A stretch of DNA of 64,000 nt from Cliona cf. orientalis. Its lineage: Eukaryota > Porifera > Demospongiae > Clionaida > Clionaidae. Of the stretch, positions 8,773-28,800 are shown piece after piece (position 1 is the stretch's first letter; each line of letters begins with the position of its first letter). The notes under the pieces were generated by a model. It made no database searches. It was not told the DNA's origin and saw only the letters and a program-made list of their open reading frames with translations. The DNA lies in the NCBI GenBank assembly GCA_963930775.1, contig OZ005702.1, positions 7,916,336-7,980,335 of the forward strand, read 5' to 3'. The translations under genes and the position numbers were made by a program.

Positions 8773-11700
8773 TTATTCTTCTTTAAGGGCTTCTATTTCT
8801 TTCTGTGCTTCAAATTCTTTTTCAGCTATTGCCTTTTGGTCTTTCTCTAGGTCAGTGAGAAATATTTTGGCCAGTTCTCGAACGTTTTTACGAGATTCCT
8901 CATAGGTTGGATTTTCTACGATGTACTTGTATAAATCTTTCTGTGTTAGCTTGATATGCTCAACGTATTCAGTGCAGAGGCTATTCAGAGCTACCCAGCC
9001 GGCGTAAAAGTGAACTGCTTGCTTCTTAAACGGTTCTGATGTCCACATCATCTTGCGCTCCTCTTTCGTGACTTTGTCTTCTATCATCTTCATCTTTTTC
9101 AACATGCCATCGTCAGCTAGTGATCTGCAGTGCTCTTGCATCTGCCTCCAGAATTTGGCTGCCCGCATTACTGCAGCAATGAGCTCCTGAAGAACACCAA
9201 CTGTATTGTGGAGGGCATCTACAGTTACCTCAGCCATCTCCTGTTCAAATTTGCAATCCTGTATCATGACTGCAAAGCTAGTCATTCTTTCCATTGCCTC
9301 ATAGCGCTGCTTACGTAGCATGTTTTCTTTCTCCAAGGCGTGAATACGTTTCTCCTTCCAGAGGCCTACCTTTCTTGTTCCTTCATCAAATACTTCATAT
9401 CTGAATAAAGCATTTACCAGTGACTTAAGGGGATCTATGTGCCTGATACTGCTGATAGCATCATCTTCTTTTGCTTCGATCTGCAGGCGTTGTGCTTCAG
9501 CTTCATGCTCCAATCTTTGAGCTTCGTCTAGCAACTTTTGTTGATGCTGTAGTTGTATCTGAAGCTGCTGGTGCTCTTTCTCCCTTTCTTCAATGCGAAC
9601 TTTTGCATCTCCACGAGCTATTTGAGTTTTCTTGAGAGTGTCTTTCACCTTTTCTTCTTGTTTCTGGAACTTCTCATGAAGTGCAAGTGCAGCTCTTTCC
9701 ATGTCTCCTGCTAATTTTGAAACAGATGACAGTGTTTCAATGGCCACGTTTTCTTTGTTGAGAAGTAAGTAGCCATACATTGCCTCGAGTCCATTCAAAA
9801 CCATTGATGAAGCTCTTTTGAACTTGGAAATCATCAGTGCTGACTCATCGCATAGCTTGGTGATATCGAATCCAAGCAGTTGTATTTCAATATGTAGCTC
9901 AGTGTATTGTGGACCAGCAGCTATCACACCATTGTAGGCAATGCGAATGAACGCTCCTGCGTGTCCAAGGTAATTCACAAGTGTCTTGAGGTCCACTGCT
10001 CCAAGCAGGTTCTTTTTTTCTTCAGCCACAACTTTAGATTCAGCTGCAGGAAGAACATCTAGGCTGTGTATTTCATTACCGATTTTAACCTGCTTTGATC
10101 CATCCAAGTCACTTGACATTTGATCTGTGGCTTTTACTGTGTATGATACATGCATGTGGGAGGAGGGTATAATCAGTATTAAAATTAATATTAGTATTAC
10201 CTCACTATAGCCTAGATTGTATAATATATGTATATAGCCTTTACTTCAATGCAAGATATCTTGGGCACAGTGCCATTCATGTGGACATTGAAAAATTACA
10301 CTGACAAGACTTAGCTACCAATGACCATTTTTTCCATCCTTTCTGTCACCACCTGTTGATTACCTCTGGCTCCGTTTAGTATTCCTTCATTCTCTGTACT
10401 AGTAGACATGGCAACTATATCTGCATGCATGTCGTCAGTGCCAAGTTGGGTATTTGAGACAGCCAAGATAGCAGAAGGTAGTAGAACCTCCAATTTTAAG
10501 CCAGGTCCTGCAATTCAGGGATCAAATGTTGATTTGAGAAGCTACCGACGCTTAAACTAAATTCTTGATATTAATTTCATGCAAGTTCAGACCCTAGTGA
10601 TAATTTATTATGCAGGCTCACACATAGGCCTACTTAATATTATTATGGCTCATTGCTATGTTGGCTATTATCTCATTCCTCATTCAGCTATCTCATTGCA
10701 CAATTGATGCATTGGACCATAAGTCACTTACTCTGTTCTGCCGCATGGCTTATTTCTTCATTTCCTAGACCAATATCCAACTTCTCCGGGGACATAATAT
10801 TCTGAGCTTGTGCTCTTGAGAGATCTTCAGCCCCTCTTGAAGTGATACCACAGTTGCTTAGGATTAAAGTGTTGAGTGTAGCAGTTTCTCTTACAGCTTC
10901 AGCTATCAAGGATGCTCCACTGTCTCCAATTGGATTATAAGACAAGTATAGATGTTCAATAAAGGGAAGCATCCTAGTAGTATATAAAACACCCTCTTCA
11001 TGAATCTCATTACTAGTTAGGTAAATAGTTATTTTACCAACATAGTCCAAATTATTATCTGCATGTAGGTACTTCGACAAGCATTTTGCACCAAGATCAC
11101 CAATAGTGCAGCAGTTAAGGTCAACACTGATTTCCTTACCACTAAGAGAGGAGAGGAAAAAACTGACAGAGAGACAGTCCAGTGGACTGAGTGAGATCTC
11201 ACTAAGATCTAGCCTATACTCTAGTCTCTCAGCTACATGAAGGCAGAGGTCAGGATCCTGAGCCTCGTGTAAGCAGCGAAGAAGAGACACTAAGTGAGGC
11301 TTGGACTTGGCTTCTACTATTCTATCAAAAACTTGGCGTATCCCTGGACTCTTCAACTTGGTGATGGCAGCATAAAACTGAAACACAGCAGTAAAACGAG
11401 GCTGGTTGAACAACTGCTGGAATTGAGACACCTGCTCACTATCTGACAACTTTGTGGTTATATAATAGGCTGACAAAACCTCTTGGATGGACAGATGAAG
11501 AAAGTTATAGAATACTGACTTTCCACCTTGGAGAAAACTCTCTATTGCTTGAAGAAGACTGAGTGTGTTGGATCCTTGAGGCAAGTCACTGGAACAGAAG
11601 GTCACTTCGTTCTCCATCACACCACGATAGGCAAGCTCACAGAGACACTGAAAAGGCTCTCTCACTGCTTCACTCCTGGAAAGATCATCTAAAGACGCTA

Positions 11701-25800: not shown

Positions 25801-28800
25801 TCCGAGTGTATATTTACTAATAAGGTGACTATTTTTTGCAGGTACTAATGTTTGATATTTCTGCAGATTGGCCCAAAAACGCAAAATTTTTTACCCACTA
25901 ACATTAGGTATATTATGCACTGTAGACGCTAGAATATGTCAACCCTATACCATTTCCGCATACAAATCACACAATTCAGTACTCACAAAACGTATTTTAA
26001 GCCAAAATCACAGAAAAATATACCTGCAAATAATTATCACTCTAAGGTACTATATAGGGAGGAATAATAACAATAGCTTGCTTTTGTTCACTGATGCATG
26101 CACTCACATTTTAACATCTGTACAGGCCAACAAGCTACTGCTACCTCAAATACCCAACTTGAAACTGATGATATGCACGAAGACACAGTTGCCACATCTA
26201 CTGGCACAGAGAATGAAGGAGCACTGAACAAAGCCACAGGCAATGAACAAGTGGTGATAGAAAGTGTGGAAAAAATGGTCACTGGTAAGTGTTAATTTTC
26301 AATGTCCATATGAGTGGCACTGTGTCCAAGACATCTTGCGTCAAAATAAAGGCTACATACACTATACAATCTAGGCTAGTGAATAAAATGTAATACTGAT
26401 TACACCCTCTTCCCACATGCATGTATCATACACAGTAAAAGCCACAGACCAACTGTCAAGTGACTTGGATGGATCAAAGCAGGTTAAAATCGGCAATGAG
26501 ATACACAGCTTAGATGTTGTTCCAGCAGCTGAATCTCAAATAGTGGCTGATGCAAAAGATGCGCTACTTGGAGCAGTGGATCTCAAGACACTTGTGAATG
26601 ACCTTGGACACGCAGGAGCATTCGTTCGCATTGCCTACAATGGTGTGATGGCTGCTGGGCCACGGTACACTGAGTTACAAATTGAAATACAGCAGCTTGG
26701 ATTCGACATCACCAAGCTATGTGATGAGTCAGCACTGATGGTTTCCAAGTTCAAAATAGCTTCATCAACGGTTCTGAATAAACTCGAGGCAACGTATGGC
26801 TACTTACTTCTTAACAAAGAAAATGTGGCCATTGAAATGCTGTCATCTGTTTCAAAATTAGCAGGAGACATGGAAAAAACTGCCGTTGCACTTCATGAGA
26901 ACATTGAGAGACAAGAAGAAAAGGTGGGAAATACTCTAATAAAAACCCAAAAAGCTCATGGAGATTTAGCAGTTCGCATTAAAGAAAAGAAGAAAGACCA
27001 CCAGCAGCTTCAGATACAACTACAGCATCAACAAAAGTTGCTAGACGATGCTCAAAGATTAGAGCGTGAAGCTGAAGCACAACGTCAGCAGATCGAAGCA
27101 AACGAAAATGATGCCATCAGTAGCATCAACCACACAGGTCCCCTTAAGTCATTGGTCAATGCCTTATTCAGGTATGAAGTATTTGATGAAGAGACAAGAG
27201 AGGTAGGCCTCTGGAAGGAGAAACGTATTCAGGCCTTGGAGAAAGAAAATGAGCTACGTAAGCAACGCCATGAGGCCATGGAAGGATTGACTAGCTTTGC
27301 AGTCATGATACAGGGTTGCAAATCTGAACAGGAGATGGCTGAGGCGGCTGTAGATGCCCTCCACAAGACAGTTGATGTTCTTCAGGAGCTCATCGCTGCA
27401 GTAATGCGGGCAGCCACATTCTGGAGGCAGATGCAAGAGCACTGCAGATCACTTGCTGACGATGAGATGTTGAAAAACGTGAAGATGATACAAGATGGAA
27501 ACACAAAAGAGGAGCGCAAAATAATGTGGACATCAGAACTGTTTAAGAAGCAAGCAGTTTGCTTTTACGCCGGCTGGGTAGCTCTGAATAGCCTCTGCTC
27601 TGAATACGTTGAGCATATCAAGCTAACACAGAGAGATTTATACAGGTATATCGTGGAAAATCCAACCTATGAGGAATCTCGTAAAAACGTTGGAGAACTG
27701 GCCAAAAAATTTCTCGCTGACCTAGAGGAAGAGCAGAAGGCAATAGCTGAAAAAGAATTTGAAGCACAAAAACAAATAGAAGCCCTTATGAATAAAGTAA
27801 AAGATATGCTATAGACAACTAGAACATAACATAATAGTTTAACTTACTAGTTTATTGTACAAGAAGTTTAAATTCTAACGTTTATACCAGCACCCTGAGA
27901 ATATTAATTGTTGAATTCAACAGTAACACTATATTAATAATCCATAGTTATAACAGGCGCAATCAGTGACAAAATAATATATGCTATCATAATAGCTAAA
28001 ATAATATACACAATGTAGTAACGTTTGATGTCACAATCATGGAATAATGGATAATATATATGCATGAGTTACTCACAGTATTAAAGCTCATATACTCAGA
28101 GAAAGTCCCATCTCCCTAGCTGTATGTATGTCAATCATTAGTCGTTAGTACAGTGCGCACGCATGCCAGCTGCAGCAGCAAGAACTTAGTATTGCTTCTT
28201 AGACCACACCCCTCGATGCAGGTCAATAGCAGCTGCTTGAACTTGCCACTGCAATGGCGAAGTCCTCGCTCTGTCGAATCTACCACCAGGCTTTGACAAA
28301 GAACAGACCTCGTCTCTTGCTTCACTTGAGGCTTGGTGGCCTGCTGAGCAGGGTTCTTGAAACACGTGGCGCTTTGTGCCATTCATTCTGGCAAGAATGC
28401 ATCTCTATGGCCACCCTTGTTTGTGCCGCACATGGCACTGCAAATCTGATCAATCGTGGGCCTTCTAAACTTGTAGAAGAGCGCATCTTTCATGCCCTCC
28501 AGGTTAGGATACGGACTATATAAGAAAAATGATCACCTGAAAAATATTTTTCGTTGTATATAGTATAATTATACACTAGTAACTATAGAATATACAATAC
28601 AGTTCAGGTTATAACTATAGATCGTGCACTAAATTCAGTAACTCATTTTCATGAAGGTATTTCGTTTTCAATTTTAAAAATATCATGCTTAACTCCTTGC
28701 TCACATTCACTTTCAAGCATCACCCAGGCATCAAGAAAAGTCTTTCCAACCTTTCTGCTTGGGCTGCTATCAAGCCAACTCAAATCTTCTTCCTCTTTAG

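Follow-up and report, generated by a model that had tools for sequence, protein, structure and literature searches.

Within a stretch of DNA from the sponge Cliona cf. orientalis, an NLR-type receptor gene and a short Death-domain gene end in the same linker and helical tail, which raises the question of how one C-terminal module came to stand behind two different recruitment domains, and what it might do there. The stretch comprises positions 7,916,336 to 7,980,335 of contig OZ005702.1 (assembly GCA_963930775.1), 64,000 nt in all; we refer to it as the window, and to the contig that carries it as C14. The account that we put forward, tentatively, is that the NLR has undergone a C-terminal swap, and that the tail it would have gained is a module for assembly and partner binding.

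The duplicated linker and tail

Both gene models were rebuilt from the DNA. The NLR gene, on the minus strand, has four exons and a predicted product of 1757 amino acids (aa): exon 1 (16008–16314), ending in a phase 1 donor, codes for a CARD-like recruitment domain, exon 2 (10732–14145) for a repeated domain of about 215 aa, a NACHT domain and a short run of leucine-rich repeats (LRRs), exon 3 (10319–10507) for a linker, and exon 4 (8773–10136) for the helical tail and the stop codon. The Death gene, on the plus strand, also has four exons and a predicted product of 603 aa: a short exon 1 (25408–25423; MAELQ) with a phase 1 donor, the Death domain in exon 2 (25490–25747), which is phase 1 on both sides, the linker in exon 3 (26126–26284), and the tail and stop codon in exon 4 (26436–27814). 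All six introns of the two genes are GT-AG and, as the initial annotation had stated, phase 1. The anatomy that it proposed, a CARD-NACHT-LRR receptor and a Death-domain protein, holds for the NACHT domain (PF05729, E 2.2e-19, 70.3 bits), for the LRRs that follow it (three stretches of LRR_6, E 1.5e-11), which together characterize an animal NLR, and for Death exon 2 taken alone (23.4 bits against a Pfam cut-off of 22.6), which falls slightly under the cut-off when the linker is attached (21.7 bits). The CARD match of NLR exon 1, however, is below threshold (E 0.032, 14.7 bits against a Pfam cut-off of 23.9).

An inverted repeat of 1406 nt at 90% identity (8784–10189 and 26383–27788) covers the exon 4 region of both genes, and two shorter ones join 10316–10463 to 26140–26287 (148 nt, 82%) and 10229–10308 to 26282–26361 (80 nt, 84%). 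The two copies of exon 4 align without gaps over 1359 nt (453 codons) with 144 differences, their tail proteins are 82% identical, and intron 3 still matches at 130 of 151 aligned nt. The earlier claims that the two genes end in the same two exons, and that the intron between these is alignable, are thus borne out, with a qualification for exon 3, where the homology begins only inside the exon (from 10463 downward in the NLR gene), the repeat leaving out 44 nt at the start of NLR exon 3 and 14 nt at that of Death exon 3. By these alignments, exons 3 and 4 of the NLR and of the Death gene, intervening intron included, form a single inverted duplication. A breakpoint inside exon 3 speaks against clean exon shuffling; because of it, and because the receptor's own 3' end is missing, as described below, we read the history of the cassette as one duplication with truncation rather than as repeated clean shuffling.

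The substitution pattern indicates that both tails are under coding constraint. Between the exon 4 copies the proportions of nonsynonymous (pN) and synonymous (pS) differences are 0.089 and 0.171, the ratio of the corresponding rates (dN/dS) is 0.49, and dN lies significantly below dS (Fisher p 2e-4). When one lineage was simulated neutrally from the Death copy, it stayed free of stop codons in 0.18% of 5000 runs. Measured against a related tail on contig C18, dN is 0.302 for the NLR copy and 0.314 for the Death copy, therefore the NLR tail decays no faster than the Death tail. Single-site changes polarized against the C18 tail, with 50 ambiguous codons set aside, give synonymous to nonsynonymous counts of 13:18 on the NLR side and 17:22 on the Death side.

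When the 216.8-Mb genome was searched with the tail protein, and all nine candidates were scored, four tails turned up: besides those of the window, one at C18:5375213–5376535 (57% identical) and one at C2:4466894–4468219 (39%). Each of the latter two has its own Met just upstream of the conserved start. Within 20 kb around each of them, a profile of ten Death exons detected no Death exon of this kind, and the linker peptides gave no credible match (best E 3.4); the linker exon itself has only two copies in the genome (both candidates scored). As far as Death exons of this kind and linkers go, the C18 and C2 tails therefore appear to stand alone, which would make the signalling fusions specific to this locus. 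The cassette does sit behind two different N-terminal partners, as had been suggested, but two linker exons and two apparently solitary tails do not support it as a general device for different recruitment domains.

The receptor family and the missing LRR end

The window NLR has many relatives. Exon 1 finds 77 matches in the genome, 46 of them at other places on C14 (53–77% identity, E ≤ 1.7e-21), and exon 2 finds at least 96 at E ≤ 1e-20, all but two of them on C14; of 769 exon 2 candidates, 41 were scored. From the 18 matches outside the window that reach the end of the query, seven were sampled (six on C14, one on C5), and in all seven the LRR run continues past the window breakpoint (LKQ..QLKELWIG). 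In the window NLR this LRR end is missing at the donor: similarity to the relatives ends within about 10 nt of a GTAAGT at 10731, a phase 1 donor directly before an in-frame TGA (10726–10724). In four of the seven relatives (L048, L050, L051, L052) an IEIEG-like motif is followed by GGTGAG, which resembles a donor, and in the other three the frame continues.

What follows the LRRs differs within the family. The paralog at C14:5488602–5495165, one of these three and a 2188-aa open stretch 71% identical to the window exon 2, has more LRRs after the exon 2 part and then a ROCO-like module (COR-A, E 1.3e-7, 32.0 against 35.3 bits). Judged by position and frame length, three open frames on C14 (2197, 2189 and 2621 aa) combine NLR exon 2 with a ROCO-like match, the third with an internal stop, and the C-terminal modules of this NLR family therefore vary. 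Such paralogs resemble the window NLR in exon 2 (about 70% identical) and in carrying a module after the LRRs; they differ in that the ROCO-like part, its COR-A match just under cut-off, takes the place of the helical tail. C14 also holds a more distant Death-NACHT-LRR relative (43% identical over 715 aa); it, too, extends beyond the window breakpoint, and tblastn found no tail in the region fetched around it.

Because the sampled relatives carry more LRRs, and some of them another module, where the window NLR has the tail, a C-terminal swap seems likely. A member of this large family, with its CARD-like exon, NACHT domain and LRRs, would have lost its LRR end together with whatever came after, and would have gained a copy of the linker and helical tail from the neighbouring Death-tail gene about 16 kb away. 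Splicing of the NLR to its tail is likely, too, given that both genes have open frames and that their phase 1 splice sites match. Four observations weigh against this account. The sequence that separates NLR exons 2 and 3 holds a TGA and an AATAAA; the genome search found the tail on one NLR only; about 20 exon 2 matches end at query positions 1093–1128 and fall outside the LRR-end sample, since sampled matches were chosen for reaching the query end; and helical periodicity is non-significant in 20 of 30 overlapping segments of the tail, including a polar stretch near residues 141–266, so that a regular coiled coil is not supported. In the other 10 segments, periodicity reaches p ≤ 0.05, uncorrected.

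The main rival is that there are two genes here, a truncated NLR ending at the TGA and a separate tail gene starting within exon 3 or 4, which we regard as possible but doubtful. The AATAAA, at about 10609 in NLR intron 2 (10508–10731), would fit such an ending, in-frame Met codons are present in both exons 3 and 4, and the C18 and C2 tails, with their own Met, appear to be solitary genes of just this kind. However, none of the sampled relatives ends at the TGA, all seven running on, and the place where LRR homology ends is occupied by a GTAAGT donor whose phase fits the tail. Moreover, the distance from the TGA to exon 3 is a mere 216 nt, and the frame and splice sites of exon 3 have been kept although a gene starting in exon 4 would have no need of them.

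It is improbable, in our view, that the arrangement is a functionless by-product of local duplication, with a decaying NLR and a hitch-hiking tail. That the NLR-tail combination was found once in the genome, and that the hairpin gene adjacent to the duplicate, described below, is broken, would both be expected of such debris, but NLR exon 2 (dN/dS 0.46 against the paralog at C14:5488602–5495165) and the tail are both still open and constrained.

Several smaller observations concern the receptor gene. The reading of intron 2 as a decayed LRR end found no support, its alignment scores lying within the shuffled range for all seven paralogs; there is one 25-nt blastn match (E 0.04). The AATAAA in this intron might allow an alternative short NLR transcript. 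By eye, the donor ends of NLR exon 2 (10746–10726, minus strand) and Death exon 1 (25408–25430, plus strand) are alike, both reading CAGA/GTAAGTG, a likeness that may be chance or may hint at the origin of the donor. The domain of about 215 aa before NACHT (12899–14143, minus strand) is without a Pfam match over cut-off, and in many relatives the corresponding query stretch, around 212–428, finds a second match beside the main one, as an internal repeat would. Between 4.8 and 7.9 Mb, C14 holds a very large NLR expansion on a single contig. Several open frames there, up to 3702 aa long, are matched repeatedly by one and the same NACHT or LRR part, which suggests tandem receptor units in one exon.

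The tail and its hairpin-bearing neighbour

The initial annotation saw no precedent for the tail among animal NLRs. The tail was compared with Pfam (best DUF6679, E 0.007, 16.9 against 23.9 bits), NCBIfam (ASRP with the C18 tail, E 0.003, 16.2 against 300 bits), PADLOC (PDC-M15A, E 0.01) and PDB sequences (best E 0.068), none of which gave a match that was significant or over cut-off. Candidate prokaryotic and viral relatives were also rejected: 88 and 163 stretches fit a pattern, and none was confirmed. No description of the tail was found in the literature examined, though this falls short of showing that none exists. No transmembrane-like segment is found in any of the four tails (best 19-residue hydropathy mean 0.9–1.1), and a heptad-block scan gave nothing over its threshold. 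The tail is probably a soluble helical module of a small family.

A relative of one hairpin-type gene lies beside the tail at all three tail loci. In the window this partner gene (28649–29689, minus strand), coding for a glycine-rich hydrophobic hairpin, and the Death-tail gene converge, with about 0.8 kb between the partner and the Death-tail stop; the distances are about 1.2 kb on C18 (convergent) and about 2.4 kb on C2 (same strand). Two in-frame stops, at 29554–29552 and 29383–29381, break the window copy, the C2 copy is open and has the glycine-rich hydrophobic hairpin, and the C18 copy is open and without it; an additional broken fragment lies on C18, and the partner query has weak matches on C10 (E 0.014) and C9 (E 0.14). 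A hydrophobic segment is thus present in two of the three partners, with a best 19-residue hydropathy mean of 2.2 on C2 and 1.8 on C14. The relation between partner and tail is limited to the C-terminal FW region (BLASTP E 5e-6; hhalign probability 85, P 6e-6). Among solved structures, the partner profile matches AopB (E 0.001) over a helical and hairpin stretch. The linkage could be the trace of an old duplicated block just as it could mean joint function.

Tail and partner could be the two parts of an execution module that acts on membranes in the manner of helical pore-formers, with the NLR and the Death protein as its triggers. The constant neighbourhood, the common C-terminal region and the hydrophobic hairpin all point this way, as do weak matches of the partner to alph_xenorhab_A (C14 piece, 18.6 bits) and MakE (C2, 14.7 bits). 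Against a cut-off of 125 bits, however, 18.6 is the best partner score for a ClyA/xenorhabdolysin-type pore-former, and plain coiled-coil models score the partner equally well or better (LmuB, E 2e-6). The alph_xenorhab_A model also matches in 6 of 14 control genomes and reaches 16.8–18.9 bits at three other places in this genome, level with the partner, for which reason homology of the partner to pore-forming toxins was rejected; one of these places, 27 kb from the C2 tail, is by eye a RING-like coiled-coil gene. The partner genes are absent from the list that this genome search returned although the C14 piece scores 18.6 bits, so some candidates were missed. The tail matches none of the pore-former models and has no transmembrane-like segment, the window partner is broken and that of C18 lacks the hairpin. 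All in all, we find such an execution module quite improbable. Least probable of all is a combined version, in which the soluble tail would be the docking half of an execution module encoded by two genes, the hairpin-bearing partner making up the rest, and would stand in place of the LRR end of the NLR while the Death version served other receptors; if true, an early animal would have an effector NLR that is wired directly.

On C10, at about 0.878 Mb, a glycine-zipper open reading frame (L020 8080–8463, minus strand; over Pfam cut-off) lies in a cluster of Death-domain matches. As a relative of the partner it was rejected, having only a weak match (E 0.08).

A possible shared complex and related systems

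The ten nearest relatives of the Death exon are 41–51% identical to it. One, L038, is the N-terminal domain of the Death-NACHT-LRR gene on C14 mentioned above; by eye, L034 looks like a second Death-NACHT-LRR gene and L036 adjoins a ROCO-like frame. In five of nine relatives (L031, L032, L033, L034, L036) two exon bases stand between a YAG and the start of the frame, which corresponds to phase 1, and the offset is the same. The Death-tail protein could thus be recruited by Death-type receptors such as the L038 gene product.

Returning to the C-terminal swap, the tail would belong to a small family of modules, otherwise represented by separate genes that neighbour a hairpin-bearing relative, and it would act in assembly and partner binding. 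Death-type receptors or adaptors would recruit the Death-tail protein by way of its Death domain, oligomerization of NACHT in the tailed NLR would bring tails together, and both proteins might feed one tail-dependent complex. We infer from this layout, as the initial annotation did, that the tail may be the business end or the meeting point of one pathway.

FADD- and ASC-like Death-domain adaptors are short proteins with one death-fold domain and a second module. The Death-tail protein has the same layout, but in it the second place is taken by a tail of 458 aa that falls into no known family. Fungal and plant NLRs that have an executioner domain of their own carry it at the N-terminus; these would be analogous if the tail acts on membranes, and no sequence link to them was found. 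Closer to the window NLR are the bona fide NLRs of sponges (NLRC, NLRD and NLRX; described for Dysidea avara, PMC12909245), which also combine a recruitment domain, NACHT and LRRs and have undergone a large species-specific expansion. A figure legend in that paper names COR, CASc and Litaf as further NLR domains. The available excerpt of the paper makes no mention of a C-terminal helical tail common to a Death protein, and the window NLR differs further in that its LRR run is cut short.

The locus would thus present a receptor family exchanging its C-terminal part, with more LRRs in the sampled relatives, in some of them also a ROCO-like module, and, in the window NLR, a new tail that is also found on a Death protein. 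This makes it a test case for the rewiring of early animal NLRs, and the orphan tail module, with its linked partner gene, has a role that is directly testable.

Elsewhere in the window, two similar GTPase genes with septin matches over Pfam cut-off (41556–43657 and 59136–60986, both plus strand) lie about 15 kb apart and have, by eye, coiled-coil and Cys/His-rich parts. A Chlamydia-PMP-type repeat protein (5339–7444, plus strand; E 1.6e-7), with hydrophobic segments after the repeats by eye, is probably part of a longer gene (2712–8347). Finally, a 98% palindrome with overlapping arms of 41 nt (21341–21414) is possibly a small mobile element.

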